Origin: Dolomitihabitans soli
GTDB taxonomy: Bacteria > Actinomycetota > Actinomycetes > Streptosporangiales > Streptosporangiaceae
Direction: 5' to 3'
DNA: 64,000 nt
NCBI RefSeq assembly: GCF_022213955.1
Contig: NZ_JAKNTW010000005.1
Span: 124,001 to 188,000, forward strand
The notes under the pieces were generated by a model, which saw nothing but the letters and a program-made list of their open reading frames with translations, was not told the DNA's origin and did no database searches. Below, piece by piece: positions 4,145 through 24,469 of this stretch. The position numbers were made by a program, and so were the translations under genes. Numbering within the stretch: the first letter of the stretch is position 1; the number at the start of each line of letters is the position of its first letter.

Positions 4145-5797
<1,653 letters not shown>

Positions 5798-5850
5798 CGG
5801 CGCCCGAACCGGGGGATCGATGAGAGGAGTGGGGGAGCGCCGGTTCGGCG

Positions 5851-7233: not shown

Positions 7234-7327
7234 CCGACCCCCCGGCAATCAAATGATCACACTAGGCATATGTTGCTCGGAGTCGTGGAGATTCATCCCC
7301 AAGGCAGGCTAAAAATAGCTTTCTATG

Positions 7328-7363
7328 ATGCAAACGGCGTTATATGCATGATTAAGGCGTTAT
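7328..7363. promoter_or_regulatory. AT-rich divergent promoter region with repeated GGCGTTAT
   Basis: Between the kinase and HAD genes the octamer GGCGTTAT occurs twice, 22 bases apart, in a patch much richer in AT than its surroundings. Likely promoter or operator DNA; strand and regulator not assignable. Confidence 0.3.
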
Positions 7364-7434
7364 GACCGGTATCGCATCCCGGGGCCTGGACACCCACCTG
7401 ACGTCCGGACGGCCGGGCACGTGACAATGGGACG

Positions 7435-8124: not shown

Positions 8125-8163
8125 GACGGCCACGGGGTCCCGTGCCCCGTGGCCGTCATCCGG

Positions 8164-11100
8164 CTATCTCAGCGCGTACGCCCGCTTGACGGTCTGCGTC
8201 GTCGAACCGCCCTTCTTGTCCGAGGCATGCACCCGGAGCGACACGTAGCCACTGGTGGCACCCAGCGGCGGGTGGTCCACGGTGACCCGGTAGCCGTCGT
8301 GGCCGTGCTTCCACACCCGCCGGGCGTCCCGCCAGGTGGCTCCGTCGTCGACGGAGTACTCCACCTCGACCTCGCGCACGTCGGGCGCGCGGCGGATCGA
8401 CGAGTGCGCGCCGGCCCGCAGGCCGAAGGTGAACGCGCGCCCGGCCGGGGCCCGGTTGAGCAGGTCGAGCGGCACGTCGTAGGTCACCTGGATCGCCGGC
8501 TGGAACGAGCAGGCGGGGCCGAAGGTGCAGGAGTACCCGCCGGGCGTGCCGGTCGGCGGCGTGGAGGTGAACCGCGAACTGGTGGTCACCTGCTCCGACA
8601 GCTTTCGGTCAGAGGTGTCCACGGCGTCGAGCCGGTAGGCGGCGGAGCCGTCCGGGACGATGAACGAGCGGGGACGCCGCCCCTGCGGAGTGATCACCGC
8701 GTCGCCGGCGGTCAACCGGGGATCGGCTTTCAGCGGGCTCAGGCGGCTGTAGTGCCGGGGATCGGAGTCCAGCCAGTACTCGGCCGGGACGAACCGGTCG
8801 CCGTCCCGGCACAGCACGCACGGCACCTGGGCCGGATAGCCGTCCGGCACGTCCGCGGCACCGGGCACCAGGGGCGCCTTGAACCAGCTCTCGTCCAGCC
8901 GGGCGCGGGAACGCGGGAACCGGTCGTGCGCGAAGAGGTCCAGGCCCTGGCTGCTGATCTCGCGCGACCAGACCACCTCGCCGGACGCCGGGCCGAAGTA
9001 CTCGGTCCTGGAGAGCGGCAGCTTCATCGCTTCGCCGTACGACAGGCTGGTGGACGCGTCGCCCGCGGTGGACTGGCCGAACTCCCAGCCGCTGGTCTCC
9101 GGCTGGTCGGCGTGGTAGTCGGACTCGATGCGGATGAGCTCGCGGTTGTCGAGGCGTTCCGGCTTGGCCGGCACCCGGCCGCGTTCCTCGAAGCGCAGCC
9201 GGTAGACGGTCTCGCGCCCGGTGTACGGCTCCAGCTTGATGGACAGGCCGTTGCCGGACTCCACGGCGGCGCGCAACGCGCGTCCCTCGGTCACGTTCAG
9301 GCCGAGCCGGTGGGTGGTGTAAGCCCCGCCGGGAACGCGCGGCCCGGCCCCGTCCACGTCGAAGTAGCCGACGAAACCGGCCGCGCCCCGCTGCCCGGCG
9401 AATCTGGCCGCGGTATCCATCTGCTTCGCCGCGTCCAGGTACGGCGAGGCGCCGGAACCGACGGGGACACCGGTCAGCACCAGCTGGCCCGTCACGTCGA
9501 GGTTCTCGAAGTCCTCGGCCCGGCCCTGACCGGCCCACACGACCGGATACGACACCGGGCCGGTCAGCATCTTGCTCATCGACACGCGGTCGTAGGTCGG
9601 GTGCAGGTCCAGCCGGCCCGCCGTGGCACGATCCAGTACGGCCCGCTCCAGGCTCCACTGGTGGGAGAGCCGCATCTTGCCCGACTTCACCTTGGAGACG
9701 GGCGTGATGAAGAGATCGTGGTCGGCCCCTCCGTCGGACGTGCCGCCGTAGACCATCACGGGGGAGGGCCTGTCGGTGAACGTCCGGGTGTAGCGCACGT
9801 GGCCGCTGCCGTCGGTGGCCTGCGGGGTGATCGGGCGCAGGGGCACGGTCTCGCGGGCGTCCAGGGCGACCTTCTGGTCCTTGTCCAGGGACACCTCCTT
9901 GATCACCCAGCTGTTGCGGGTCCGGGGGTAGTACTCGCTGGCGATGCCGACGATCTCCCAGTCGCCGCCGGGCAGGTAGAGCTCGCCGTCGCCGGAGAGG
10001 TCGAGCCGGAAGGAGTACCAGGCGTAGGGGTTGAAGGGATCCTCGGGGCTGTTCGTCCGCTTCATCGGGATCGCGTAGACGAGCGGGCCGAACTGGGAAC
10101 TGGTGTAGAACTCCTTGGTTCCGTAAGAGTTGGTCATGGAGAACGAGAGCCGGTGCGTGTCCGGGCCGGTGTAGTAGCTGAACGGGGTGGTGAGCCGGAC
10201 GTCGCCGCCGCTCGCGGTGACCCACCCGCCGTACGCGCCGGTCCTGGCGGCGGCGGGATCGACCCTGAGGTCGACGGTGGCGGTCCCGCCCGCCGGCACG
10301 GTGACGGTCTGGGAGCCGAGACCGATCGCCTCGGCGGGGGCGGCGGCGCCGCTCCAGCCACGGGTGTGCAGCGCGACGTCCAGCGTGACCGCCTCGCCGC
10401 CCGTGTTGCGGTAGGTGACCTGCCTGGTGACCGGTCCCTTGGCCGGATCGAGGAGACGGAAGTCGACGACCGAGGTCGCGAACACCGTCTGGGTCACCGC
10501 ACGGCCCGCGTCGAGACGACCGGAGCCCTGCTCGAACCAGTTGTGCGCCTCGTTCCGTTCGGCCGTCGAGGTCAGCGCCTCGCGCAGTTCCCCCGCCCGC
10601 CAGTCCGGGTGCTGCTGGGCCAGGAGGGCGGCGGCCCCGCTGACGTGCGGGGTGGCCATCGAGGTGCCGCTGTTGGCGGTGTACCTGTCGTTGCCGGGGA
10701 TCGGCTTGGCGGCCGAGTCGGCGGAGCGGGCGGCGACGATGTCGACACCCGGGGCGACGATGTTGGGCTTGACCGCCGCGTCGTCGAGCCGGGGCCCGCG
10801 GCTGGAGAACTCGGCGAGGGTGGTGCCGGTGGTCTTGTCCACCGCGCCGACCGCCAGGGCCTGGTCGGCCGCCGCGGGGATGCCCACGGTGAGCGGGTCG
10901 GACTCGTTGCCCGCCGCGACGACGAACAGCGTGCCGTGCTGCTCGGTGAGGCGGTCGACCGCCTGGCTCATCGGGTCGGTGCCGTCGCCGCAGCAGGAGC
11001 CGAGGCTCAGGTTGACCACGTCGGCGCCCTGCTCGGCGGCCCATTCCATGCCGGCGATGGCCCAGGACCAGTCGCCGTTCCCCGCGTCGTTCAGCACCTT

Positions 11101-11994
11101 GCCGACGAGCAGGGAGGCGGCGGGCGCGACACCCTTGTACTTGCCGTCCGAGGCGCTGCCGGAGCCCGCGATCGTGGAGGCGACGTGGGTGCCGTGCCCT
11201 GACCGGTCGGCGAGGGCGGGGGCGTCGGAGAAGTTCTCACCGGCGACGATCCGGCCCGCGAAGTCAGGATGGGCGGCGTCGATGCCGGTGTCGAGGACGG
11301 CGACCTTGGTTCCCTTGCCGTCGAAGCCGCGGTCCCAGGCGGTGGGCGCGCCGATCAGGGGGACGCTCTGGTCGAGGGACACCTCGATCCGGCGGTCCAG
11401 CCAGATCTTGGACATGCCGCCCGCCAGGGTGGGCCGGTCGCCGAGCGCGGCCCAGAACTTCGGCGCCTCCGCGACACGCACCGTGACCGCGGCGCCGTTG
11501 ACGGCGTCGAGGGTGCGGGTGGTCTCGGCGGCGGGCAGCGCCGCCGCGGCCTTCGCGACGGCGGACTCGGCGGGGTCGCCGGCGTAGGTGACGATCAGCG
11601 GGATCGTCTCGGTGCGCTGCTCCGCGGCCAGCGTCTCGACGTCGAACAGTTCGTCGTCGAGGGCTCCCGAGGCGATCATCCCGGCGGCGTCGGAGGGCAT
11701 GACCAGGTGGCCGCCGTCGCGGTCGGGGAGGGTGGTGAAGGTGACGGGCGCCCCGTCGGGCCTGGGCGCCTCGCGGATGTCGAACGACGGCACGCCGCCG
11801 TCCTTCGCCGGGGTGTACTCGACGACGTCACCGGTGATCAGCGTGACGGTGGTCGTGGCCGTGACGGCCTGCCCACCGGGTTCGGCGCCGACCGGTTCGG
11901 CCGGGGTGGCCGCCGATCCGGGAGCGGCGAACGCGGTGAGCACGAGTGTGGCACCGGATAAGACCGCGGTGATTCTGGCGCGGGTGCGAGACAA
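8164..11994 (-). CDS. Secreted S8-family subtilisin-like serine protease, very large
   Basis: TTG at 11994 is preceded by GAGAGGGA and opens directly into a signal peptide (LSRTRARITAVLSG... to about residue 31), so it is chosen over an upstream ATG. The 1276-residue precursor has a propeptide region (about 35-205), then the S8 catalytic domain with Asp235 (VAVLDTGID), His267 (SGHGTHVAS), the oxyanion Asn in AAGNES and Ser445 (GTSMATPHVSG). Some 800 residues of beta-rich C-terminal sequence follow, as in the large secreted subtilases of streptomycetes and relatives, probably for substrate or surface binding. All triad residues are present. Monocistronic, with paired CebR/CelR-like palindromes about 40-60 bases upstream of the start. 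Confidence 0.93.
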   Translation of the reverse strand: MSRTRARITAVLSGATLVLTAFAAPGSAATPAEPVGAEPGGQAVTATTTVTLITGDVVEYTPAKDGGVPSFDIREAPRPDGAPVTFTTLPDRDGGHLVMPSDAAGMIASGALDDELFDVETLAAEQRTETIPLIVTYAGDPAESAVAKAAAALPAAETTRTLDAVNGAAVTVRVAEAPKFWAALGDRPTLAGGMSKIWLDRRIEVSLDQSVPLIGAPTAWDRGFDGKGTKVAVLDTGIDAAHPDFAGRIVAGENFSDAPALADRSGHGTHVASTIAGSGSASDGKYKGVAPAASLLVGKVLNDAGNGDWSWAIAGMEWAAEQGADVVNLSLGSCCGDGTDPMSQAVDRLTEQHGTLFVVAAGNESDPLTVGIPAAADQALAVGAVDKTTGTTLAEFSSRGPRLDDAAVKPNIVAPGVDIVAARSADSAAKPIPGNDRYTANSGTSMATPHVSGAAALLAQQHPDWRAGELREALTSTAERNEAHNWFEQGSGRLDAGRAVTQTVFATSVVDFRLLDPAKGPVTRQVTYRNTGGEAVTLDVALHTRGWSGAAAPAEAIGLGSQTVTVPAGGTATVDLRVDPAAARTGAYGGWVTASGGDVRLTTPFSYYTGPDTHRLSFSMTNSYGTKEFYTSSQFGPLVYAIPMKRTNSPEDPFNPYAWYSFRLDLSGDGELYLPGGDWEIVGIASEYYPRTRNSWVIKEVSLDKDQKVALDARETVPLRPITPQATDGSGHVRYTRTFTDRPSPVMVYGGTSDGGADHDLFITPVSKVKSGKMRLSHQWSLERAVLDRATAGRLDLHPTYDRVSMSKMLTGPVSYPVVWAGQGRAEDFENLDVTGQLVLTGVPVGSGASPYLDAAKQMDTAARFAGQRGAAGFVGYFDVDGAGPRVPGGAYTTHRLGLNVTEGRALRAAVESGNGLSIKLEPYTGRETVYRLRFEERGRVPAKPERLDNRELIRIESDYHADQPETSGWEFGQSTAGDASTSLSYGEAMKLPLSRTEYFGPASGEVVWSREISSQGLDLFAHDRFPRSRARLDESWFKAPLVPGAADVPDGYPAQVPCVLCRDGDRFVPAEYWLDSDPRHYSRLSPLKADPRLTAGDAVITPQGRRPRSFIVPDGSAAYRLDAVDTSDRKLSEQVTTSSRFTSTPPTGTPGGYSCTFGPACSFQPAIQVTYDVPLDLLNRAPAGRAFTFGLRAGAHSSIRRAPDVREVEVEYSVDDGATWRDARRVWKHGHDGYRVTVDHPPLGATSGYVSLRVHASDKKGGSTTQTVKRAYALR

Positions 11995-12299
11995 GGGGTT
12001 TCCCTCTCGATCTATGACGTGGAGCGGGAGCGCACCCGATCGCGGGAGCGCTCCCATATGCAAGATGCATGCTTCCACGCCCAGTGATCAAATCATGCCG
12101 AATGTCGCCATATGGGATGACCGAATTCGAGTGACCTGTCAGGTGCTCCGCGTGATCGCCGCGCGGAGTTCTGGGGCAGTGAGCCGGCCACTGGCGATCG
12201 AGGGGGTGGCCGCTCTGCCGTACAGATCAATGCTCTGTACGGGTGGTGGGTCGCTGGTTAGAGTAAGTAAGCACTGATTTCCGATGCGGTGGAGCGAAG
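11995..12299. other. Divergent control region, subtilase / acyl-CoA dehydrogenase operon
   Basis: 305 bases without a gene. It contains the CebR/CelR-like boxes near the subtilase and, next to the other operon, an element GAGTAAGTAAGCACTGA (about 12259-12276) that could be an operator for a TetR-type fatty acid regulator. No clear -10/-35 pair was assigned. Confidence 0.5.
12026..12055. promoter_or_regulatory. Tandem CebR/CelR-like palindromes upstream of the subtilase
   Basis: GGGAGCGCTCCC (12044-12055) is a perfect 12-base palindrome followed by A, matching 13 of 14 bases of the published CebR/CelR operator TGGGAGCGCTCCCA. A weaker copy, GGGAGCGCACCC, lies at 12026-12037 with centres 18 bases apart. 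Both sit between the subtilase start and its likely promoter. Confidence 0.55.
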
Positions 12300-13463
12300 A
12301 TGGATCTTGAGGAATACCGTCGCCGGGCCAGGGCGTGGCTCGTTGAGAACGCCGTGGAGGGTGCCGAAGGGGTCGCGGCGGCCAGGCGTTTCATGGCCGC
12401 GATGTACGACGCGGGCTACTCGGGGATCTCCTGGCCGAAGGAGTGGGGCGGCCAGGGGCTGACCCAGGCGGAGGAACTGGCCTTCGCCGCGGAGGCCCGC
12501 GACTTCACGCTGCCGATCTACGCCTTCTCCATCGGGCTGGGCATGTGCGGTCCCACGATCGTCGACCTGGGCACCGACGAGCAGCGCCGCCGCTGGGTCC
12601 GGCCGCTGCTGCGCGGCGAGCGGATCTGGTGCCAGCTCTTCTCCGAGCCGGGCGCGGGCAGCGACGTCGCGAGCCTGCAGACCAGGGCCGAGCCCGCCGA
12701 GGACGGCTGGATCGTCAACGGCCAGAAGGTGTGGACCAGCGTCGCCCAGTACGCCGACCTGGGCCTGCTGCTGGCCAGGACCGACGTCGAGGCGCCCAAG
12801 CACCGCGGCCTGACGATGCTGGTGATCGACATGCACGCGCCCGGCGTGACCGTCAGGCCGCTGAAGGACATGAGCGGGCGCAGCAACTTCAACGAGATCT
12901 TCTTCGACAACGTGCACATCCCGGCGGAGAACCTGATCGGGCAGGTCGACGACGGCTGGAGCTGCGCGGTCACGACCCTGCTGCACGAGAGGCTGTCGAT
13001 CTCCGGCGGGGTCGGCATGAGCGGGGCGCGGGACAACCCGGCCTCGTTCGAGCGGCTGCGCGAGGTGGTCGACACCGGCGACCCGATCGTCCGCGACCAG
13101 CTCGTCGAGCTCTACGTGCGCTCCCGCGCGCTCACCCTGTTCAACCAGCGGCTCGCGGAGGAGACCAGGGCGGGCGTCTTCCCCGGGGCCAGGGGCAGCG
13201 CCGCCAAGCTGCTGCTGGCCGAGCTGACCAACTTCGGCGCCGACCTGGCGATCTCGCTCGCCGGTCCGGAGGCCGTCGCCTACGACGACGACGGCGGCGG
13301 CCTGGCCCGCGCCGTCTCCCAGGCGCCGGGGCTGTCCCTCGGCGGCGGCACCAACGAGATCATGCGCAACATCGTCGGCGACCGGGTGCTGAACCTGCCC
13401 CCCGAGCCGAGGTCGGACAAGAACGTGCCGTTCAAGGACCTGAAGGTGGGGACCCAGCAGTGA
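12300..13463 (+). CDS. Acyl-CoA dehydrogenase, large-type subunit
   Basis: 387 residues from ATG with GGAG seven bases upstream. The FAD/substrate motif FSEPGAGSDVASLQT (about residues 117-131), GQKVWTS (about 141) and the C-terminal GGGTNEIMRNIVGDRVL are those of acyl-CoA dehydrogenases. It overlaps the next gene (a second, divergent acyl-CoA dehydrogenase) by a 4-base GTGA. Adjacent pairs like this form alpha2-beta2 FadE-type enzymes in actinobacteria, where only one subunit carries the full catalytic set, and typically act on branched, steroid side-chain or CoA-ring substrates. The pair plus the following synthetase makes an operon for activating and oxidising an acid. Substrate unknown. 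Confidence 0.93.
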   Translation: MDLEEYRRRARAWLVENAVEGAEGVAAARRFMAAMYDAGYSGISWPKEWGGQGLTQAEELAFAAEARDFTLPIYAFSIGLGMCGPTIVDLGTDEQRRRWVRPLLRGERIWCQLFSEPGAGSDVASLQTRAEPAEDGWIVNGQKVWTSVAQYADLGLLLARTDVEAPKHRGLTMLVIDMHAPGVTVRPLKDMSGRSNFNEIFFDNVHIPAENLIGQVDDGWSCAVTTLLHERLSISGGVGMSGARDNPASFERLREVVDTGDPIVRDQLVELYVRSRALTLFNQRLAEETRAGVFPGARGSAAKLLLAELTNFGADLAISLAGPEAVAYDDDGGGLARAVSQAPGLSLGGGTNEIMRNIVGDRVLNLPPEPRSDKNVPFKDLKVGTQQ

Positions 13464-14512: not shown

Positions 14513-16021
14513 ATGCCTGAGATCAGCCGGTTACCCGGCTTCTACAAGATTGCGGAGGCCGACCCCGGCCGCCGGGCCGTGATCGACGCCGACGGCTCCG
14601 TGACGACGTACGGCGAGCTGCTCGCCCTGGTGAACCAGGTGTCGCACGGCCTGCGCGCGCGGGGTCTCGGCACGGGCGACGTGGTCGCGGGGGTGCTGCC
14701 CAACGGGCTGGACGCGGTGGCCATGCTGATGGCCACCGGGCAGCTCGGCCTCTACTACGTGCCGATCAACTGGCATCTCACGCCGGGCGAGATCGAGTAC
14801 ATCCTCGGCGACTGCGACGCCCGTCTCGTGGTCTCCGCCGAGCCGTACGCGCAGTCGGTGCGGGCCGTCGCGAAGGAGGTCGTGACCGGGGCCGGGGCGC
14901 TGGCGGCCGGGCAGCCCGCCACCGCGCCCGCGGACCGTACGGCAGGCAACGTGATGTGGTACACCTCGGGCACCACCGGCTTCCCCAAGGGGGTGCGGCG
15001 ACCGCTCTCCGGCGCCGAGCCCGAGCAGGTCGTGCCGCTCTACCTCTGGTTCCTCGGCGAGGTGTGCGACCTGGTGCCGGGCGACGGCGTCCACCTGGTG
15101 ACCTCGCCGATGTACCACTCCTCGCCGTGCGCGCACTCCACCTTCGCGCTGCACCTCGGCCACACGCTGGTCATCACCCCCCGCTTCGAGCCGCAGACCA
15201 TCCTGGAACTCGTCGAACGGCACCGGGTCACCAACGCGATGATGGTGCCGACGATGTTCCACCGGATGCTCCAGCTCCCCGAGGAGACCAGGCGGGGATA
15301 CGACGTCTCCTCACTCGCCCAGGTGATCCATACCGCCGCGGCCTGCCCCGTCGCGGTGAAGAAGGGAATCATGGACTGGTGGGGGCCGGTGCTGTACGAG
15401 TACTACGGCTCGACCGAGTCCGCGATCGCCTTCGCGGTCAAGCCGCACGACTGGCTGGCCCACCCGGGCACGGTGGGCAGGACCGCGCCCATGTTCGAGG
15501 CGCGGATCCTCGACGAGGACGGCGCCGAGCTGCCGCCGGGCGAACCCGGCATGATCTACGTCAAGTCGTCCCTGGGCCGGTTCGAATACCTCAAGGACCC
15601 GGCCAAGACCGCCGCCGCCATGCGCGGAGAGTGGTACGCCCCCGGCGACATCGGCTACCTCGACGAAGACGGCTTCCTGTTCCTCTGCGACCGGCGCACC
15701 GATCTGATCATCTCCGGCGGGGTGAACATCTACCCCGCCGAGATCGAGGCCGCCCTGCTCGAACACCCCGCGGTGGCCGACGTGGCGGTGATCGGCGTGC
15801 CCGACGAGGAGTGGGGCCACTCCGTGGTCGCGCTGATCCAGCCGGTCGAGGGCGTCACGGGCGACCCCGGCCTCACCGCCGCGCTGCTGGCGCACTGCGG
15901 CCCCCGGATCGCCCGCTTCAAGCACCCCAGGCGGATCGAGTACCGCGCCGAACTGCCCCGCACCCCCACCGGGAAGCTCTCCCGGTCGAAGGTGCGCGAG
16001 GAGTATCTGGCCGCCCGCTAG
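14513..16021 (+). CDS. AMP-forming acyl-CoA synthetase
   Basis: 502 residues; ATG follows GGAGG at the proper distance and lies 15 bases after the dehydrogenase stop. The P-loop YTSGTTGFPKGV is about residues 149-160, the adenine motif YEYYGSTES about 297-305, the hinge YLDEDGFLFLCDR about 382-394, and the catalytic Lys is in PTGKLSRSK near the end. It activates a carboxylic acid via an acyl-adenylate to its CoA ester, feeding the two dehydrogenase subunits upstream. Chain length or ring type cannot be read from sequence. Its stop overlaps that of the convergent racemase gene by four bases (CTAG). Confidence 0.92.
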   Translation: MPEISRLPGFYKIAEADPGRRAVIDADGSVTTYGELLALVNQVSHGLRARGLGTGDVVAGVLPNGLDAVAMLMATGQLGLYYVPINWHLTPGEIEYILGDCDARLVVSAEPYAQSVRAVAKEVVTGAGALAAGQPATAPADRTAGNVMWYTSGTTGFPKGVRRPLSGAEPEQVVPLYLWFLGEVCDLVPGDGVHLVTSPMYHSSPCAHSTFALHLGHTLVITPRFEPQTILELVERHRVTNAMMVPTMFHRMLQLPEETRRGYDVSSLAQVIHTAAACPVAVKKGIMDWWGPVLYEYYGSTESAIAFAVKPHDWLAHPGTVGRTAPMFEARILDEDGAELPPGEPGMIYVKSSLGRFEYLKDPAKTAAAMRGEWYAPGDIGYLDEDGFLFLCDRRTDLIISGGVNIYPAEIEAALLEHPAVADVAVIGVPDEEWGHSVVALIQPVEGVTGDPGLTAALLAHCGPRIARFKHPRRIEYRAELPRTPTGKLSRSKVREEYLAAR

Positions 16022-17118
16022 AGGGGGATCCACTCGGTGGCGGTGGTGACCTCGTCGAGGATGGCGGTGATCGGCTCGACGCCGAGGCCGGGGCCGGTCG
16101 GGACGGGGAGATGGCCGTCGTCGAGGATGAACGGCGGGGTGATGTCGGTGGCGAAGTAGCGGTCCGAGGCGGAGGTGTCGCCCGGCAGGGTGAAGCCGGG
16201 CAGCGCGGCCAGGGCGATGTTGGCGGCGCGGCCCAGGCCGGTCTCCAGCATGCCGCCGCACCACACGGCGACGCCGTGGGCGCGGCACAGGTCGTGGATG
16301 CGGCGGGCTTCGAGGTAGCCGCCGACCCGGCCGGGTTTGACGTTGATGATGGAGCAGGAGCCCAGGGTGATCGCCGCGGCGGCGTGCTGGGCCGACTCGA
16401 TCGACTCGTCCAGGCAGATCGGCGTGGTCAGGCGCTTGGCGAGCAGGGCGTGCTGAACGAGGTCGTCGTTGGCGAGGGGCTGTTCGATCAGTAGCAGGTC
16501 GTAGAGGTCCAGGCGGGCCAGGTGGGGGGCGTCGGTGAGGGTGTAGGCGGCGTTGGCGTCGACCTGGAGCAGGACATCGTCGCCGAGCCGTTCGCGGACC
16601 GCCCGCACCGGGGCCAGGTCCCAGCCGGGCTGGATCTTCAGCTTGATCCGCACGTAGCCCTGCGCGCGGTAGCCCTCGACGGCGTCCAGGAGCTGCGGGA
16701 TGGAGTCCATGATGCCGACCGAGACTCCGCACGGGACCCGGTCGCGGGCCGCCCCCAGGAAGGACCCGAACGACTGGCCGGTGGCCCGGAGCCGGGCGTC
16801 GAGCACCGCGGTCTCCAGCGCGGCCTTCGCCATCCGGTGCCCCTTGACCGGTGCCAGCGCCCGTTCCACCGCGTGGACGTCGGCTCGGTCGGGGAGCGCC
16901 GGGATCAGGAACCGCCGCAGCACCTCGGCGGCGCCCTCCACGTACTCGGAGGAGTAGAGCGGCTCGGCCATCGCCACGCATTCCCCCCAGCCCTCCGCCT
17001 CGGGGGTCACCACCCGGACCAGCAGCACGTCCCTGGCCGTCTCGGTGCCGAACGAGGTGCGGAACGGCGACACCAGCGGCAGCGCGATCCGCCGCAGCTC
17101 CACTCCGGTGATCTTCAT
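16018..17118 (-). CDS. Enolase-superfamily racemase (N-succinylamino acid racemase / o-succinylbenzoate synthase type)
   Basis: 366 residues from ATG at 17118. Fold markers of the MLE/OSBS subgroup are all present: KLK (catalytic Lys pair, about residue 162-164), metal ligands in LQVDANAAY, LLIEQPLA and ICLDES, and the opposite-face Lys in INVKPGRVGG. In this subgroup the same active site can make o-succinylbenzoate for menaquinone or racemise N-succinylamino acids. No other men gene is nearby; instead a GNAT acyltransferase, an M20 deacylase and a dipeptidase precede it with 4-base overlaps. That neighbourhood matches the N-succinylamino acid racemase pathway described in Geobacillus, so the racemase role is favoured. 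It is the last gene of the operon. Confidence 0.85.
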   Translation of the reverse strand: MKITGVELRRIALPLVSPFRTSFGTETARDVLLVRVVTPEAEGWGECVAMAEPLYSSEYVEGAAEVLRRFLIPALPDRADVHAVERALAPVKGHRMAKAALETAVLDARLRATGQSFGSFLGAARDRVPCGVSVGIMDSIPQLLDAVEGYRAQGYVRIKLKIQPGWDLAPVRAVRERLGDDVLLQVDANAAYTLTDAPHLARLDLYDLLLIEQPLANDDLVQHALLAKRLTTPICLDESIESAQHAAAAITLGSCSIINVKPGRVGGYLEARRIHDLCRAHGVAVWCGGMLETGLGRAANIALAALPGFTLPGDTSASDRYFATDITPPFILDDGHLPVPTGPGLGVEPITAILDEVTTATEWIPL

Positions 17119-17927
17119 GCTTTCCTCTCGAGCACGTAGTAGGTCCTGCGATGGAAGCCGGTGACCCGGGCGCCGTCCGCCAGCAGCCCGCCCAGCACCT
17201 CCCGCACCGCGTGCCGCCACTCCGCGGCGACCTCCGGCGCGCCGCGGCGCAGCGCCTCGACGTCCTCGGGCACCGCGACCAGCACCACCGCGGCGTCGGC
17301 CCGCCCCGGGACGGGACGGCCCGCCCGGTCCTCCAGCGCGATCACCGCGTCCGGCGGCACCTCCGGCCGGTACGGCTCGCCCCCGGCGGCGGCCACCACG
17401 TGCGGCGCGCCCAGCTCCCATGCGGCGAGAATCCGGTCGGACTCGTCGCCCGCGTTGACCTCGTCGTCCATCGCGCCGTAGAACCGCTGGAGGTACTCCA
17501 CCGGTGCGGCACCCAGCTTGGCCAGATTGAAGTAGGCGTTGCGGCGCACCAGCGGGTCGTAGGTCCAGGTGATCCGATCCAGGCCGCGGGCCAGCGCCCA
17601 GGCGCGCTGGTGCAGTTTGAGCGCGAAGCCGGTGCCGCCGAGCGTGACCCCGGTGACGTGGGAGTGCATCCCCCGCCCCACCGGCTCGGCCAGGAACCCC
17701 ACCGAGCCGCCCACCAGCTGATCGTTCCGGTAGGCCCCGGCCACGTAGTTGCCCGAATGCGCCAGCGCGCGCATCAGCTCCACCGTGATCGGCGGGTTGG
17801 TCGGGGTGGGATGCCAGATCTCGTCGAAGAGGCGGGACACCTGTTCGAAGTCCTCGATCTCCCGCAGCTCGCACACCCGTACGCCACGGCTCGCTGCGGC
17901 CAGGCTCGCCGCCTCCCCGGCGTTCAC
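17115..17927 (-). CDS. GNAT-superfamily acyltransferase (putative D-amino acid N-succinyltransferase)
   Basis: 270 residues from a GTG that overlaps the stop of the M20 gene. The sequence is of the larger 'predicted GNAT' kind: an N-terminal arm (EIEDFEQVSRLFDEIW), a VAGAYRNDQLVGGSVGF strand pair, the acetyl-CoA region SHVTGVTLGGTGFALKLHQRAWA (note Gly-rich pyrophosphate loop, split here as text), then TWTYDPLVRRNAYFNLAKLG and a long C-terminal extension. Proteins of this layout accompany enolase-type N-succinylamino acid racemases and transfer succinyl groups to D-amino acids. Role assigned by operon context; the acyl donor and acceptor are inferred, not seen. Confidence 0.75.
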   Translation of the reverse strand: MNAGEAASLAAASRGVRVCELREIEDFEQVSRLFDEIWHPTPTNPPITVELMRALAHSGNYVAGAYRNDQLVGGSVGFLAEPVGRGMHSHVTGVTLGGTGFALKLHQRAWALARGLDRITWTYDPLVRRNAYFNLAKLGAAPVEYLQRFYGAMDDEVNAGDESDRILAAWELGAPHVVAAAGGEPYRPEVPPDAVIALEDRAGRPVPGRADAAVVLVAVPEDVEALRRGAPEVAAEWRHAVREVLGGLLADGARVTGFHRRTYYVLERKA

Positions 17928-19030
17928 CGGGCGGCCGTCCGCCCCGAGAGGACCGCGGTGACCAGCGCGGCCAGCAGTTCGGTACGGCGCGGCAGTTCGG
18001 CCACGATCATGTGCTCGTGGTCGGCGTGCGCGCCCCCGCCCACGGCTCCCAGCCCGTCGAGTGTCGGGCAGCCGACCCCCGCCGTGTAGTTGCCGTCGGA
18101 CGCGCCGCCCACCGCGACCTGTTCGAGCGGGCCGAGGCCCAGTTCGGCGGCCAGTTCGGCGGCGAGCGCGAACAGCCCGGCGGAGGACGACGGCTCCATC
18201 GGCGGCCGGTTGGGGCCGCCGATGAGCTCCAGGCGGGTGCCGGCCAGCCGTGGCGTCAGCGCCCGCATCCGCCGGTCGACGCGCTCCTGGGCGACGAGAT
18301 CGGTCACCCGCACGTCGACCTTGAGCCGCGCCTCGGCGGGCACAGTGTTGGGGCTGGTCCCGGCGGACAGCACGGTCGGGGTGACCGTCGTGGCGCCCTC
18401 GGCGAGTCCGGCGATCGCGATCACCTGGTACGCCAGCTCGATCCCCGCGTTCGCGCCCAGTTCGGGCTCCAGCCCGGCGTGCGCGGCCTTGCCGTGCACC
18501 ACCAGTTCGTACCGGGAGACGCCCTTGCGGGTCGTCTTCAGCGCGCCGCCGTCGGCGCTCGCCTCCAGCACGAAAGCGGCGTCCATGCCCCGCGCGCAGT
18601 CTTCGATCAGCGTCCGGGAACTCGGCGAGCCGAGCTCCTCGTCACCGGTGACGAGGACGGTCACCCCGTCGAGGGACGGCAGCGAGGCGAGCGCGTGGAA
18701 GGTCTGCACGAGTCCGGACTTCATGTCGAACACGCCGGGCCCCCTGGCGACCCCGTCGACCACCGACCACGGGTGGGTGGCCAGCGAGCCGATCGGCCAG
18801 ACCGTGTCGTGGTGCCCCACCAGCAGCACCTTCGGCGTGCCGAAGCGCCAGCGCAGGTGGGTGACGCCGTCGATGACGATCGTCTCCGGCGCGGCGCCGA
18901 GCAGGCGGGCGCCCAGCGTGGCGACCACCTTGGCGCTGCGCGCGACGGCGGCGAGGTCGGCGGAGAAGGACTCGCACAGGACGAGCTCCTCCAGGTCGGC
19001 CAGCATCCGCCGCTGATCGAACGGGCTCAC
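17924..19030 (-). CDS. M20-family metallo-deacylase/peptidase (putative N-succinyl-L-amino acid hydrolase)
   Basis: 368 residues; GTG at 19030 overlaps the stop of the dipeptidase gene. Metal and catalytic positions of family M20 are intact: LVGHHDTVW (first His and general Asp), GVFDMKSG (bridging Asp), TGDEELGS (general base Glu and metal Glu), an Asp/Glu-containing LEASADGG and a closing HADHEHM. The dimerisation lid domain lies at about 175-285 (KAAHAGLEPELGANAG). M20 enzymes remove N-acyl groups or cleave dipeptides. Between a dipeptidase and a GNAT/racemase pair, the likely job is hydrolysis of an N-acyl-L-amino acid, making the D-to-L conversion irreversible. Confidence 0.85.
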   Translation of the reverse strand: MSPFDQRRMLADLEELVLCESFSADLAAVARSAKVVATLGARLLGAAPETIVIDGVTHLRWRFGTPKVLLVGHHDTVWPIGSLATHPWSVVDGVARGPGVFDMKSGLVQTFHALASLPSLDGVTVLVTGDEELGSPSSRTLIEDCARGMDAAFVLEASADGGALKTTRKGVSRYELVVHGKAAHAGLEPELGANAGIELAYQVIAIAGLAEGATTVTPTVLSAGTSPNTVPAEARLKVDVRVTDLVAQERVDRRMRALTPRLAGTRLELIGGPNRPPMEPSSSAGLFALAAELAAELGLGPLEQVAVGGASDGNYTAGVGCPTLDGLGAVGGGAHADHEHMIVAELPRRTELLAALVTAVLSGRTAAR

Positions 19031-20064
19031 GCCTGGCGTCCGAGCTCGGCGCGGAACAGGCGCAGCACGTTACCGCCGACGATCTTCGTGACGTCGTCCT
19101 CGGCCAGGCCGCGTTTGAGCAGCCCCTCGGTGACCAGCGGCAGGCCGGCGGGCCCGTCGACGCCGGGCAGGACCGCCTTGACGTCGACGCTGCCGTAGCT
19201 GAAGTCCTCGCAGCACGGCGGGGTGAGGTCGGCCATCACCTCGCGGATGAAGTCGGGGCCCAGGCCGACGTGGTCGATCCCGGCGACGCCGGCGACGTGC
19301 TCGATGTGGTCGAGCAGCCGTTCGACGGTGAAGTCGACGGGGTCCTCGGCCAGGAAGCCGGGCAGGAAGTTGACGCAGACCACGCCGCCCGTCGCGGCGA
19401 CGCCCCTGAGCTGGTCGTCGGTCAGGTTGCGGTGGTGGTCGCGCAGGGCGCGGGCCGAGGAGTGGGTGGCCATGACCGGCCGGGTGGCGAGTTCGAGCAC
19501 GTGGGCGACGCCCGAGGCGCCCAGATGGGACACGTCGAAGATCATGCCCAGCCGTTCCATCCGGGCGAGCGCCGCGACCCCGGGCGCGGTGAGCCTGCTC
19601 CCGGTGGCGTCCTCACCGCTGCCGTCGGCCAGTGCCGTACGGCCCCAGTGGGCGATCGACGCGACGCGCACTCCGAGCCGGTGCATGGTCGGGAACAGTT
19701 CCACGTCGGCGTCGAGGCCGGGCGCGCTCTCCAGCGCGAGCACCAGCGCGATCCGGCCCGCGGCGAGCGCGTCGTCGATCTGCCGGCCGTCGAGGCAGAG
19801 CCGTACGGTGTCGGGGTTGCCCTCGGCGATCACGTGTGCGCACTCGATCATGCGCAGTGTCTGCCGGAGCGCGCCCTCGGGACGATACTGGTTGTCGATG
19901 AAGACGGGCAGCACCTGGAGGTTCACCCCGCCGGCGGTGAGCTGGGGGAGCCAGCGTTCGCGGAAGAACGACGCCCAGTGCTCCGGTGGCCGCGCGCTGA
20001 CCGCCATCAGCAGGTCGTTGTGGGTGTCCGCGACGACTGCGCGGTCATGAAGATCAGGTGCCAC
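19027..20064 (-). CDS. M19 renal-dipeptidase-family membrane dipeptidase homologue
   Basis: 345 residues; GTG at 20064 follows GGAGGG. The zinc ligands appear as ADTHNDLL (His, Asp), a Glu in LALESAPG, and the two His residues in DVSHLG and ATHSSARALRDHHRN, in family order; GLGPDF near residue 270 is also typical. There is no signal peptide, so it acts in the cytosol. M19 enzymes cleave dipeptides and, unusually, accept D-residues at the C-terminal side, which would release D-amino acids for the downstream acyltransferase and racemase. First gene of the four-gene operon; promoter lies in the short space before it or upstream of the monooxygenase gene (27 bases apart). Confidence 0.88.
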   Translation of the reverse strand: MAPDLHDRAVVADTHNDLLMAVSARPPEHWASFFRERWLPQLTAGGVNLQVLPVFIDNQYRPEGALRQTLRMIECAHVIAEGNPDTVRLCLDGRQIDDALAAGRIALVLALESAPGLDADVELFPTMHRLGVRVASIAHWGRTALADGSGEDATGSRLTAPGVAALARMERLGMIFDVSHLGASGVAHVLELATRPVMATHSSARALRDHHRNLTDDQLRGVAATGGVVCVNFLPGFLAEDPVDFTVERLLDHIEHVAGVAGIDHVGLGPDFIREVMADLTPPCCEDFSYGSVDVKAVLPGVDGPAGLPLVTEGLLKRGLAEDDVTKIVGGNVLRLFRAELGRQA

Positions 20065-20091: not shown

Positions 20092-21513
20092 TCAGCCCCA
20101 ACCGTAGGCTTCCAGGCGGGGGGAGCGGGTCAGGCGGCGGTAGAGCGTCGTGGTGCCGGGCCAGTTGCCGGTCACCTTGCCGTCGGCGTTCTGATACCAG
20201 CTGCGGCAGCCGTCCTGCCAGACCATCTCGCCCATCTTCCGCTCCAGCCGTTGACGCCAGGCGTCCATCGCGTCCTGACGCACCTCCATCGGACCTCGCG
20301 CGGCGATGTGCGGGAGGCAGGCCATGATGTACCGCACCTGACATTCGATCATAAAGACGATCGAGTTGTGGCCGAGGTTGGTGTTGGGCCCGTACAGCAG
20401 GAAGAGGTTGGGGAAGTTCGGCACCGTGATCCCCAGATACGCCTCGGCGCCCCGCTTCCACTGCCCGGCCAGCGTACGGCCCGCCCGGCCGGTGATCTCG
20501 ATGGGGGCGAGGAAGTCGGAGGTCTCGAAGCCGGTGGCGTAGATGATCGTGTCGTGCTCCCTGGAGCCGACGCCGCGGGGTGTGATCCGGGTGATCGGAT
20601 CGGTGACGACCTCCACGTTCGGCCTGGTCAGCGCGGGATAGAAGGCGTTGTCCAGGAGGATTCGCTTGCAGCCGATCCGGTAGCCGGGGGTCAGCCTGGC
20701 GCGCAGCTCCGGGTCCGGTACCTGGTCGCGGAGGTGTTTGAGCGCCAGACCGCGGACGTATCCGGCGCTCCAGCCGTTCCTGCGCAGCGCCGGGTAGAAC
20801 GTGGCCTCCACCCGCCGGTAGATCCACTCGCGGTAGGCGCGCTGGAGGAACGGCAGGTAGCGGAAGGAGAGCCGGTGCGGCAGGGTGAAGCCCGCGTCCG
20901 GCTTGGGGATCACCCAGTTGGGCGTGCGCTGGTAGAGGTCCACCCGCCGGGCGATCGGCGCGATCCGGGGGACGAACTGGGCGGCCGACGAGCCGTTGCC
21001 GATCACGGCCACGTCGCGGCCGGTGAGATCGTGGCCGTGGTTCCACCGGGCGGAATGGAAACTGGTGCCCGTGAACTCCGTCATTCCCTCTATGTCGGGG
21101 AGATGGGGGCGATTCAGCTGGCCCACTCCGGCCACGAGCACGTCGAACTCCTCGACGTCGCCCGCGGCCGTGGTGACCCGCCATCTCTCGCCGGTGAACT
21201 CGGCGGCGACGACCTCGGTGTTCAGCCGGATCCGGGGCCGCACGCCGTACTTGTCGGCGCATCGCTCCAGGTAGGCGAGGATCTCGGGTTGCTCCGGGTA
21301 GCGGCGGGTCCAGCTCGCGTACTTCTCGAAGGAGTAGGAGTACAGGTGGGAGGGTACGTCGCAGCCCGCGCCCGGGTAGGTGTTGTCGCGCCAGGTGCCG
21401 CCGATGTCTCCGGCCTTCTCGAAGACCGTGTAGGTCGCGGTGCCCGCCATCTGGAGGCGGATGGCCATGCACAGCCCGCCGAAACCGGCGCCGATGATCG
21501 CGACACTGGGCAT
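20092..21513 (-). CDS. Flavin-containing monooxygenase, Baeyer-Villiger-like
   Basis: 473 residues from ATG. An FAD-binding GxGxxG (IGAGFGGL) opens the protein, a second Rossmann motif for NADPH is VIGNGSSAAQFVP (about 178), and between them FTGTSFHSARWNH fits the class B fingerprint FxGxxxHxxxW, with Asn where BVMOs usually have Pro or Asp. ATGFETSDFL near residue 350 is also typical. It should oxygenate a ketone or heteroatom with NADPH and O2. It is the gene immediately before the dipeptidase operon on the same strand (27 bases), so it may share transcription, yet it may belong with the lipid-catabolic operon instead. Substrate unknown. Confidence 0.9.
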   Translation of the reverse strand: MPSVAIIGAGFGGLCMAIRLQMAGTATYTVFEKAGDIGGTWRDNTYPGAGCDVPSHLYSYSFEKYASWTRRYPEQPEILAYLERCADKYGVRPRIRLNTEVVAAEFTGERWRVTTAAGDVEEFDVLVAGVGQLNRPHLPDIEGMTEFTGTSFHSARWNHGHDLTGRDVAVIGNGSSAAQFVPRIAPIARRVDLYQRTPNWVIPKPDAGFTLPHRLSFRYLPFLQRAYREWIYRRVEATFYPALRRNGWSAGYVRGLALKHLRDQVPDPELRARLTPGYRIGCKRILLDNAFYPALTRPNVEVVTDPITRITPRGVGSREHDTIIYATGFETSDFLAPIEITGRAGRTLAGQWKRGAEAYLGITVPNFPNLFLLYGPNTNLGHNSIVFMIECQVRYIMACLPHIAARGPMEVRQDAMDAWRQRLERKMGEMVWQDGCRSWYQNADGKVTGNWPGTTTLYRRLTRSPRLEAYGWG

Positions 21514-21552: not shown

Positions 21553-21606
21553 GATCTGGCGCGTGTAGTGAATACCGTTCTGCGGTACGGCGATAGGGTG
21601 CGCAAC

Positions 21607-22443
21607 GTGCCTGGTTCAACGCTCGCCGCCATGGTCGCGGAGCTGGAGACGATGTACGACCCCACGTGGGCCGAGACGTGGGACGCGGTCGGCCTGGTCT
21701 GCGGCGACCCCGGGGCGGAGGTGCGCAGGGTGCTGTTCGCGGTCGATCCCGTCCGCGCGACGGTGACCGAGGCGCTCGACTGGAAAGCCGACCTGATCGT
21801 CACCCACCACCCTCTCTACCTGCGCGGCACCACCAGCGTGGCGGCCACCACCGCCAAGGGCCGGGTGATCCACACCCTCATCCGGAACGACGTCGCCCTC
21901 TACACCGCGCACACCAACGCCGACGTCGCCGACCCCGGCGTCTCCGACTCGCTGGCCCGTGCCGTCGGCCTGACCGGCGACCTCGTCCCGCTGCTGCCCG
22001 CGGGCGCGGAACCCAGGCGCGGCCTCGGCCGCGTCGGCTCACTGCCCGCCCCGCTCACCCTCGCCGAGTTCGCCGCCCGCGCCGCCGCCGGCCTGCCCCG
22101 CACCGCCTCGGGCCTGCGCGTCGCCGGCGACCCCCACCGCGTCCTGCACAGGGTCGCCGTCAGCGGCGGAGCCGGCGACTCCCTCCTCAGTACGGCCCGC
22201 GCCGCCGGCGTCGACGCCTTCCTCACCGCCGATCTTCGCCACCACCCGGCCAGTGAGTTCGTCGAATCCGGCGGCCCCGCCCTGATCGACGCCGCCCACT
22301 GGGCGACCGAATGGCCCTGGCTGGCCGATGCGGCCCGCCAGTTGACGACCAGACTGCGCGCGCGGGGGATTACTGTTGAGACGCGCGTATCCGAGACGGT
22401 CACGGACGCCTGGACGACAACAGCACAGTGCGAGGAAACGTAG
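21607..22443 (+). CDS. NIF3-like dinuclear metal-centre protein
   Basis: About 278 residues from the GTG at 21607, which follows AGGG; GTGs at 21568 and 21598 are in frame alternatives. Metal-binding features are THHPLYLRG (two His), YTAHTNAD (His), and the C-terminal DAAHWATEWP (His and Glu). GVGDSL-like SGGAGDSLL precedes the last domain. NIF3/YbgI proteins form hexameric toroids; GTP cyclohydrolase-like fold, but the physiological role is poorly known. The order NIF3, zinc-ribbon protein, RNase H-phosphatase equals M. tuberculosis Rv2230c-Rv2229c-Rv2228c, so this is core synteny. The stop overlaps the next start by one base (TAGTG). Confidence 0.88.
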   Translation: MPGSTLAAMVAELETMYDPTWAETWDAVGLVCGDPGAEVRRVLFAVDPVRATVTEALDWKADLIVTHHPLYLRGTTSVAATTAKGRVIHTLIRNDVALYTAHTNADVADPGVSDSLARAVGLTGDLVPLLPAGAEPRRGLGRVGSLPAPLTLAEFAARAAAGLPRTASGLRVAGDPHRVLHRVAVSGGAGDSLLSTARAAGVDAFLTADLRHHPASEFVESGGPALIDAAHWATEWPWLADAARQLTTRLRARGITVETRVSETVTDAWTTTAQCEET

Positions 22444-23183
22444 TGAAAGCAGCCCCGGAAGCCCAGAAGCGCCTGCTCGAATTGGCCAAGCTCGACTCCG
22501 TCCTCGACCGGCTGGCACATCGCCGGCGCACTCTGCCCGAGCTCGCCGAGATCGACGAGCTGTCCGCCCAGCGCGCCCGCCTGGGCACGGCCGCCATCAC
22601 GGTCGCCACCGAGGCCGGCGACCTCGGACGCGAGCAGACCAAGGCGGAGAGCGACGTCGACGCGGTGCGTGCCCGCGCGGCACGCGACCAGCAGCGACTC
22701 GACTCCGGCCAGGTCTCCTCCGCCAGAGACCTGTCCGGCCTCCAGTCGGAGATCGCCTCCCTGCAACGCCGCCAGAGCGACCTTGAGGAGGTCGTCCTGG
22801 AGATCATGGAGCGCCGGGAGGCCGCCGACGCCCAGGTCGCCAAGCTCGGCGGCGAAAGCGAGCGGGTCGCCGCCGACCTCGCCGCCGCCGAGGAGCGCCG
22901 CGACGCCGCCCTCGGTGAGATCGACAAGGAGCACGGCGAGGTGGCCGGCACCCGTTCGGGCCTGTCCGGCGAGATCCCCGCCGACCTGCTCGCCCTGTAC
23001 GAGAAACTGCGCGGCCAGTACGGCGTGGGCGCGGCGATGCTGCACGGCGGACGCTGCCAGGGCTGCAAGGTGACCCTCTCCATCGCCGACATCAACCGGA
23101 TCAGGGTCGCCGCCCCCGACGAGGTGATCCGCTGCGAGGAGTGCCGCCGAATCCTCGTCCGCACCCCCGAGTCAGGACTGTGA
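22443..23183 (+). CDS. Coiled-coil C4 zinc-ribbon protein (Rv2229c-like)
   Basis: 246 residues; GTG at 22443 follows GAGGAAA. Residues 10-190 are long charged heptad-rich helices forming an antiparallel coiled coil; the C-terminus holds a four-Cys zinc ribbon, GGRCQGCK...CEECRR. Homologues in mycobacteria and Chlamydia/Helicobacter show the same hairpin-plus-ribbon shape and are thought to contact nucleic acid. It sits between NIF3 and rnhC with coupled starts on both sides. Function not established. Confidence 0.88.
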   Translation: MKAAPEAQKRLLELAKLDSVLDRLAHRRRTLPELAEIDELSAQRARLGTAAITVATEAGDLGREQTKAESDVDAVRARAARDQQRLDSGQVSSARDLSGLQSEIASLQRRQSDLEEVVLEIMERREAADAQVAKLGGESERVAADLAAAEERRDAALGEIDKEHGEVAGTRSGLSGEIPADLLALYEKLRGQYGVGAAMLHGGRCQGCKVTLSIADINRIRVAAPDEVIRCEECRRILVRTPESGL

Positions 23184-24469
23184 CCTCCTTCGTCATCGAG
23201 GCCGACGGCGGGTCCCGCGGCAACCCCGGGCCCGCCGGCTACGGCGCGGTCGTCATGGACGCGGCCGACGGCCAGACCCTGCTGGAGACCGCCGAGGCCA
23301 TCGGCACGGCCACCAACAACGTCGCCGAGTACCGCGGGCTGATCGCCGGCCTCGCCGCCCTGCTGACGCTGAGCGGCGACGGCGCGGTGGTCGAGGTCCG
23401 GATGGACTCCAAGCTCGTCATCGAGCAGATGGCCGGCCGCTGGAAGATCAAGAACGAGGGTCTGCGTCCGCTCGCCCTGGAAGCCGCCTCCCTGGCCCGG
23501 CGCCTCCAGGTCACCTGGACGTGGATCCCCCGCGAGCGAAACCGGCACGCCGACCGCCTGGCCAACGAGGCCATGGACGCCGCCGCCAAGAACCTCCCCT
23601 GGCACCCCTCCGGAGCTGCCCCCGGAACCTCTCCGAAGGGCGACCGTCCGGCTCAGGACGGCCCGGGGCGCACCCGTGACGGCGCCGGCGCCGCCTCCCG
23701 AGGCGGTGACCGTACGACGGCTCAGGACTCCGCGAGCGGCGTCCGTGTCGTGTCCGGCGAGATCGGGCAGGCGTCGCTCTTCGACGAACCCGACGCCGAC
23801 ACCCCCGTCGCCGCCGCGGCCACGCCGGGAACCGGCTGGCGCGCCCCGGCCAGTTCGGCGATGACCCTGCTGCTGCTCCGGCATGGTGAGACCCCGTTCT
23901 CGGTGGAGCGCAGGTTCTCCGGGATCGGCGACCCGGAGCTGACCCTGAACGGCGTGGCCCAGGCGGAGGCCGCCGCCGCCCGTTTCAAGCGCGAGCCGTA
24001 CGAGGTCGACGTGATCGTGACCTCCCCGCTGAGACGGGCACGGGCCACCGCGGAGATCATCGCCGGGCGGACACGCGCCAAGGTGGTCGTCGACGAAGGG
24101 TTCAGGGAGACCGACTTCGGTGACTGGGAGGGCCATACCTTCACCGAGATCCAGCGTCGCTGGCCCGATGAACTGGCCGCGTGGCTCGCGGATCCGGACG
24201 CCGCGCCGCCGCGAGGGGAGAGTTTCGCGGTCGTGGCAGAGCGGCTCCAGGAGACCAGGGAGCGGCTGCTCGGCGAGTACACGGGCAAGACCGTGCTCGT
24301 CGTCTCCCATGTGACCCCGATCAAGATGCTGCTCCGGTTCGCGCTGATGGCTCCCCCCGCCGCGCTCTACCGGATGCACCTCGACCTGTCCTCCCTCTCG
24401 GTGATCGAGTACTACGAGGACGGTCCCGCCGTCGTCAAGGCGGTCAACGACACGGGCCACCTCCACTGA
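23180..24469 (+). CDS. rnhC: Bifunctional RNase H / acid phosphatase
   Basis: 429 residues; GTG at 23180 overlaps the preceding TGA. Residues 1-135 are an RNase H type I domain with the DEDD set: Asp in IEADGGSRGNPG, Glu in NVAEYRGL, Asp in VRMDSKLVIEQM and Asp in NRHADRLANEAM. A low-complexity linker (about 145-225) leads to a histidine-phosphatase domain with LLRHGETPFS (catalytic His) and VVSHVTPIKM (second His). The M. tuberculosis counterpart Rv2228c removes RNA from RNA:DNA hybrids and has alpha-ribazole/acid phosphatase activity in its CobC-like half. All active residues are present. Followed by rnpB. Confidence 0.93.
   Translation: MTSFVIEADGGSRGNPGPAGYGAVVMDAADGQTLLETAEAIGTATNNVAEYRGLIAGLAALLTLSGDGAVVEVRMDSKLVIEQMAGRWKIKNEGLRPLALEAASLARRLQVTWTWIPRERNRHADRLANEAMDAAAKNLPWHPSGAAPGTSPKGDRPAQDGPGRTRDGAGAASRGGDRTTAQDSASGVRVVSGEIGQASLFDEPDADTPVAAAATPGTGWRAPASSAMTLLLLRHGETPFSVERRFSGIGDPELTLNGVAQAEAAAARFKREPYEVDVIVTSPLRRARATAEIIAGRTRAKVVVDEGFRETDFGDWEGHTFTEIQRRWPDELAAWLADPDAAPPRGESFAVVAERLQETRERLLGEYTGKTVLVVSHVTPIKMLLRFALMAPPAALYRMHLDLSSLSVIEYYEDGPAVVKAVNDTGHLH

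Follow-up and report, generated by a model that had tools for sequence, protein, structure and literature searches.

We analyzed a four-gene set located at positions 16018-20064, on the minus strand, of a 64,000-nucleotide (nt) stretch of the genome of Dolomitihabitans soli, order Streptosporangiales (contig NZ_JAKNTW010000005.1, positions 124,001 to 188,000); this whole stretch is called the window below. The set encodes an M19 dipeptidase, an M20 hydrolase, a GNAT acyltransferase and an enolase-superfamily enzyme of the N-succinylamino acid racemase/o-succinylbenzoate synthase (NSAR/OSBS) type. We hold it to be fairly probable that these genes form an operon for D-to-L amino acid salvage with a bifunctional-type enolase, and that an NSAR/OSBS enzyme, most likely that of the window, would also make o-succinylbenzoate (OSB) for menaquinone in the same cell, since the men locus no longer contains menC, which has been lost. 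NSAR/OSBS enzymes look to have repeatedly displaced MenC in this order.

Products of the four-gene set and proposed pathway

The four open reading frames (ORFs) run in the same direction, in the order M19, M20, GNAT, enolase. At the head lies the gene of an M19 (renal-dipeptidase family) dipeptidase (19027-20064, 345 aa). It is followed by the genes of a carboxypeptidase G2-like M20 metallo-hydrolase (17924-19030, 368 aa), proposed to be an N-succinyl-L-amino acid hydrolase, of a GNAT acyltransferase with a C-terminal extension (17115-17927, 270 aa), the proposed D-amino acid N-succinyltransferase, and of the NSAR/OSBS enolase (16018-17118, 366 aa), the proposed N-succinylamino acid racemase and o-succinylbenzoate synthase. 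A first-pass annotation of the window had described the four genes as overlapping by exactly four bases each, and the ORF coordinates confirm it: the junctions are 19027-19030 (GTGA), 17924-17927 (GTGA) and 17115-17118 (ATGA). The enolase start is the ATG at 17118, a longer ORF reaching 17874 being a mere upstream extension of the frame. Taken alone, the 4-nt overlaps only suggest co-translation; the gene order is not due to chance, because the same order recurs in other genera.

The enolase scores 322.5 bits with TIGR01928, the model of the NSAR/OSBS subfamily (cut-off 200.65), and 175.1 bits with the Pfam domain MR_MLE_C. It is 71.4% identical over 364 residues to the Amycolatopsis enzyme 1SJA and 48.5% identical over 344 residues to the Deinococcus enzyme 1R0M. 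The first-pass annotation credited it with all catalytic residues, and K161, K261, D187, E212, D237 and R264 are indeed present; they are unchanged in all 118 aligned relatives, a set in which some genomes were reached twice, and the catalytic residues are the same in the N-acylamino acid racemase/OSBS of Amycolatopsis sp. T-1-60 (PDB 1SJA-1SJD). We take them to be the lysine pair, the three acidic metal ligands and a second-shell arginine (Arg266 in Amycolatopsis numbering, 264 in the window). This arginine was considered as a discriminator between racemase and OSBS and was rejected, being present in all 118 sequences, including those of standalone copies, i.e. copies with no GNAT gene within 3 kb. 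The catalytic residues as a whole do not separate the two activities either, because standalone copies retain them too. When standalone (n=15) and operonic (n=98) enzymes were compared column by column, positions 2 and 158 alone were shifted, and this mostly within one clade of the Microbispora type. Residue 158, beside the catalytic KxK motif, is Ile in the window enzyme and in 94% of the 98 operonic ones, and Val in 9 of the 15 standalone ones, 7 of these 9 coming from a single clade. As the shifts are limited to these two positions and mostly to one clade, no signature of OSBS specialisation is claimed. With classical actinobacterial MenC (PRK02901) the window enzyme has in common the enolase superfamily and, if our reading is right, the reaction, but it belongs to the TIGR01928 branch: its PRK02901 score, 69.3 bits in the genome search and 70.8 when the protein itself was scanned, is below the cut-off of 288.

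The families named in the first-pass annotation for all four products are backed by profile scores and, for the GNAT, by a structural model. The M19 protein scores 261.7 bits with Peptidase_M19 (Pfam gathering score 26). It resembles the M19 membrane/renal dipeptidases (Sco3058, 3id7; 129.5 bits), with the HxD, Glu, two His and Asp motifs aligned and presumably in the same roles, and differs from them by its genetic linkage to M20, GNAT and NSAR. M19 enzymes tolerate D-residues at the C-terminal position. The M20 protein matches the Pfam domains Peptidase_M20 (86.3 bits) and M20_dimer (59.9 bits); its best solved relative is 1cg2 (110 bits), with HxD, D, EE, E and H aligned, which we take to be the metal-site residues. 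For the GNAT, Pfam and NCBIfam scans matched no model, and a direct search of solved sequences gave chance matches only; Acetyltransf_1 was matched at E <= 1 by 31 of 42 aligned GNAT members, the window protein not being among the 31. In its AlphaFold2 model (mean pLDDT 96.0), residues 14-179 align with GNAT N-acetyltransferases (Foldseek, VIA; Z up to 14.9, rmsd 2.3 over 145). According to this model the protein has a GNAT fold over residues 14-179, which is the part covered by the structural matches, its C-terminal part being barely tested by them.

From these families we infer a pathway by which the operon probably converts the D-amino acids of dipeptides into L-amino acids that the cell can use. 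The M19 dipeptidase would release amino acids, D-amino acids included, from dipeptides; the GNAT would N-succinylate the released D-amino acid; the enolase would racemize the N-succinyl-amino acid; and the M20 hydrolase would strip succinate from the L-form, which would make the conversion irreversible. Such an irreversible D-to-L pathway, made of a GNAT succinyltransferase, an NSAR and a desuccinylase, is said to have been described in Geobacillus kaustophilus by Sakai and colleagues in 2006. The genes that define it, for a GNAT, an NSAR and an M20-type deacylase, are adjacent in the window; the likeness to Geobacillus is one of enzyme class, and the window set differs by its added M19 dipeptidase and its actinobacterial host. 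The acyl group is taken to be succinyl because of this analogy and of the substrate preference of the Amycolatopsis enzyme. With N-succinyl-S-phenylglycine the latter has, according to a passage of PMC8142540, a kcat/Km of 42,000 per M per s.

Recurrence of the operon in other genomes

To examine the conservation of the set, we scanned named genomes of bacteria and archaea with a GNAT profile, which gave at least 591 relatives. The best 80 loci were kept; they are ranked by similarity to the window GNAT, and the counts are therefore not frequencies for all actinobacteria. With adjacency defined as matches on one strand no more than 400 nt apart, NSAR follows GNAT in 66 of the 80 loci, M20 precedes GNAT in 51, and the M20-GNAT-NSAR trio is found in 48. 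An M19 gene lies directly ahead of M20 or GNAT in 18 loci, and all four genes occur in order in 14, which include loci of Planotetraspora, Sphaerisporangium, Sinosporangium, Acrocarpospora, Microbispora, Rhizohabitans, Streptomyces, Embleya and Yinghuangia. The author of the first-pass annotation knew of no actinobacterial four-gene version; the set turns out to be widespread rather than unique, its order recurring in several genera. We see in it a known pathway in a conserved actinobacterial form, to which the dipeptidase is accessory, because most M20-GNAT-NSAR loci are without M19. No paper coupling an M19 dipeptidase with NSAR was found in searches of an open-access library, key subscription papers lying outside this search, so that a prior description is possible. 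Four Nonomuraea loci show a variant cluster in which NSAR does not follow GNAT: its place is taken by a 478-aa protein that no Pfam model matches, together with a WYL regulator and a protein of the penicillin-acyltransferase family (AAT), and three of the four also have zinc dehydrogenase domains.

Neighbour genes of the 80 loci were clustered, and Pfam was run on one or two representatives per cluster. The clusters, with the number of loci in which each occurs, correspond to PucR-type regulators (40), ABC ATPases (36, of the oligopeptide type in the representative), PF00144 beta-lactamase-family hydrolases (24), S9 peptidases (20, some fused to a PF00144 domain), permeases (16 and 12), Amidohydro_3 (8), SBP_bac_5 (7) and M24 peptidases (5); PF13354 beta-lactamase-family hydrolases are also recurrent. 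Lentzea and Nocardia loci have an M19 gene between the ABC ATPases and the S9 gene. These neighbourhoods read as peptide uptake and breakdown, with D-residues handled by the GNAT-NSAR-M20 trio. The D-to-L salvage put forward in the first-pass annotation, to which gene order and families lend support, is strengthened by these neighbours, i.e. peptide ABC transporters, S9 peptidases and beta-lactamase-family hydrolases.

The same neighbours may also be read otherwise: the GNAT could use another acyl-CoA, or the set could detoxify or recycle peptide-like antibiotics or N-acyl-amino acids instead of serving growth on D-amino acids. The recurrent PF00144 and PF13354 hydrolases and S9 peptidases would suit such a chemistry, as would the broad N-acyl promiscuity that a passage of PMC7431475 reports for NSARs, and the genes next door: an acyl-CoA ligase gene (14513-16021), convergent to the enolase gene and overlapping its stop by 4 nt, and two acyl-CoA dehydrogenase genes, also convergent to the operon. 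We nevertheless regard this explanation as quite unlikely, since a racemase followed by a deacylase best fits stereo-inversion and relatives of the ligase (FadD) are found in just 6 of the 80 loci. PF00144, for its part, includes D-aminopeptidases too.

The set is also kept where its enolase is not needed as OSBS. When 29 named genomes were searched for MenC and MenD, 18 had both, 4 had MenD only (Planotetraspora phitsanulokensis, two Sphaerisporangium and Microbispora catharanthi, the last of which also figures in the order sample below) and 7 had neither. Six of these 7 have MqnA-family genes over the cut-off; the seventh, Actinomadura alba, whose genome completeness is not stated, gave no MenC, MenD or MqnA-family match. 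Among the 18 genomes with both, Actinocrispum has no NSAR beside its GNAT; the other 17, all four Amycolatopsis included, carry the operon. The enolase is thus kept beside the GNAT in 17 + 6 genomes although it is not needed there as OSBS. In Amycolatopsis orientalis DSM 43388 and A. dendrobii, a 97.3% identical relative of the T-1-60 enzyme lies within an M20-GNAT-NSAR-PucR operon. In the Amycolatopsis loci M20 is preceded by an Amidohydro_3 gene, with no M19 in the flanks examined, whereas the window has M19 in this place; likewise Amycolatopsis genomes retain a separate MenC (4 of 4 tested), whereas the window genome has none over the cut-off. A passage of PMC4215206 states that the biologically relevant function of the Amycolatopsis enzyme is OSBS; the presence of the operon beside the genome's own MenC speaks against this statement.

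These genomes also bear on the view that the window enolase is simply the genome's OSBS, the work of its operon partners being unrelated to racemization. It would agree with the missing MenC beside present men genes, and the NCBIfam model that the enolase matches is titled o-succinylbenzoate synthase. With 17 operon genomes having MenC and MenD, six having neither but MqnA-family genes, and NSAR adjoining GNAT at the frequency given above (66 of 80 loci), we consider it very improbable.

Loss of menC and the candidate OSBS enzymes

The first-pass annotation had taken the lack of men genes near the set as an argument against a menaquinone role. This argument does not hold, as men genes are present elsewhere in the genome, and without menC. 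Profile searches gave 430.7 bits for MenD and 417.4 and 483 bits, over the cut-offs, for MenB, menB lying 21 nt from menD. No protein of the genome passed the cut-off for PRK02901 MenC (best 80.2 bits, cut-off 288) or for the MqnA/D family (best 21.2 bits, cut-off 26). The futalosine pathway was considered and rejected, for the window genome on this MqnA score and also for the four named MenC-less genomes tested. The classical men pathway appears to be present without its usual OSBS, and because of this an NSAR/OSBS is, on genomic grounds, very likely needed as OSBS.

The same situation recurs in the order, from which 121 genomes were sampled, that of the window included. MenD is over the cut-off in 119 of them and MenC in 92; if G127, whose MenC is divided between two contigs, is added, 93 genomes have MenC and 28 do not. 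TIGR01928 is over the cut-off in 57 genomes, namely all 28 MenC-less ones against 29 of the 93 MenC-bearing ones, one of which (G148) barely reaches it with 202.3 bits. The association between NSAR/OSBS and the absence of MenC has a Fisher p of 6.6e-12, relatedness being ignored. We then compared the men loci of all 28 MenC-less genomes with 33 loci from 32 MenC-bearing genomes. In the latter, menC is directly ahead of menD in 32 of 32 primary loci. In the former, menD directly follows menB in 23 cases and menE in 5, and none of the 28 loci contains a MenC match. Loss of menC in assembly gaps was considered and rejected: all 28 loci are contiguous, with at most 211 nt between the flanking matches. 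On a MenD tree of 60 genomes the MenC state changes 7 times, at least 6 changes being forced on well-supported branches; within a single genus (code g4), two genomes (G097 and G132) are without MenC and five others keep it. The same library searches gave no report of MenC replaced by NSAR/OSBS in these actinobacteria, key subscription papers again being outside the search. The 33rd locus of the MenC-bearing genomes is a second menB-menD locus of one of them (G139), without menC and about 52-56% identical to the MenB and MenD of the window genome; other members of its genus also have two MenD matches.

Several results weigh against the reading that we favour. A relatedness-controlled test with 6 independent pairs found NSAR to differ in 0 to 2 of them (p >= 0.5); this test is uninformative, because almost every sister genome of a MenC-less one has NSAR as well. 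The MenE-like gene divergent from menB scores 305.5 bits, under the cut-off of 345. M19 lies directly ahead in just 14 of the 48 trio loci and is absent from most. Lastly, the enolase is not the genome's only TIGR01928 member: another contig (C27) encodes a second one, with 306.7 bits and 43-44% identity to that of the window, which has its own GNAT (27-32% identical to the window GNAT) and an M20 gene nearby. Given this second NSAR-GNAT locus, the window copy need not be the OSBS. The C27 locus (7093-12586 of that contig) comprises the NSAR, a divergent GNAT, a SIS/RpiR-like gene, an antiporter-like transporter and a divergently transcribed M20; a D-aminoacylase-like amidohydrolase comes next (5442-7040).

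The operon could then serve D-to-L salvage only, with OSB supplied by the C27 enzyme and no menaquinone role for the window enolase. One MenC-less genome (G037), which has a C27-type enzyme only, agrees with this alternative, as does the above-cut-off score of the C27 enzyme itself. The C27 copy, however, is also near its own GNAT and M20, and is no more a dedicated OSBS than the window copy. Besides, in 12 other MenC-less genomes all NSAR copies (TIGR01928 enzymes of at least 248 bits) are near a GNAT: 9 have the window type only, 2 have two copies, and G037 is the remaining one. We judge salvage alone to be unlikely and, by analogy with these genomes, the window enzyme appears the likelier OSBS of the two copies.

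The first-pass annotation had allowed that its proposal would fall if the enolase were the genome's only OSBS, needed for menaquinone and devoid of racemase activity. The menaquinone need without classical MenC is borne out; an absence of racemase activity is not implied, because the operon persists in genomes with MenC or the futalosine pathway. To judge from genome comparison, both activities look physiological, since MenC-less genomes all carry NSAR/OSBS, yet the operon persists beside MenC or the futalosine pathway.

NSAR copies that have left the operon were counted in 56 genomes with NSAR of at least 248 bits. A standalone copy is present in 15 of 28 MenC-less genomes against 1 of 28 MenC-bearing ones, and on an NSAR tree (73 rows) the standalone label changes 8 times, at least 4 changes being forced. 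Several genomes serve as examples. One (G121) keeps M19-M20-NSAR, with a 4-nt M20/NSAR overlap, and has no GNAT in the set and no genome-wide GNAT match; in two (G105 and G012) NSAR is present and GNAT gave no match. Two genomes, one being that of Microbispora catharanthi, have the complete set of four genes at about 6-7 kb from menD. In yet another (G068), GNAT-M20-M19 fragments are located beside menD and the only NSAR of the genome is at a separate site; here the operon appears to be falling apart, with the OSBS candidate retained.

On balance we lean towards the following history. In this family of actinobacteria, an essential step in the synthesis of the respiratory quinone would have passed to a racemase from a D-amino acid salvage operon, the native menC having been deleted between menB and menD in at least six independent events. 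Some lineages would run both pathways with operon copies; in others the enzyme would have left the operon, or the operon would have decayed around a pure OSBS. The window genome would stand at the bifunctional stage, a single active site linking dipeptide scavenging to respiration. The repeated displacement of MenC by the same enzyme type in this order is the less expected part of these results.

Flanking genes and biological meaning

Upstream of the set, a gene with a Pyr_redox_3/FMO-like match, resembling FAD-dependent monooxygenases (20092-21513, minus strand), ends 27 nt ahead of the M19 gene. As it is so close and on the same strand, it may belong to the same transcription unit, which would then be longer than four genes; relatives of this gene are found in 7 of the 80 GNAT loci. 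On the other side, the acyl-CoA ligase was considered as a candidate MenE and rejected (menE score 208, cut-off 330). The operon is divergent from a NIF3/zinc-ribbon/RNase H-phosphatase block (21568-24469), which also lies beside the operon in ten or eleven other loci and marks a stable chromosomal address. Further on, a 703-aa protein (25308-27419) had no match in the Pfam scan.

According to a passage of PMC4215206, it has been debated ever since the renaming of the Amycolatopsis enzyme whether NSAR/OSBS enzymes have OSBS activity as a biological function or as a by-product. The genomes compared here amount to a natural experiment with three states: the operon with the genome's own MenC, the operon without the Men pathway, and the operon or a standalone copy with men genes but no MenC. 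With these states, the disputed role of promiscuity in NSAR/OSBS becomes directly testable with close orthologues. They also predict which genomes rely on which activity, and correct automatic annotation in both directions. For soil actinomycetes, the operon would provide a concrete route for the use of peptide-bound D-amino acids.

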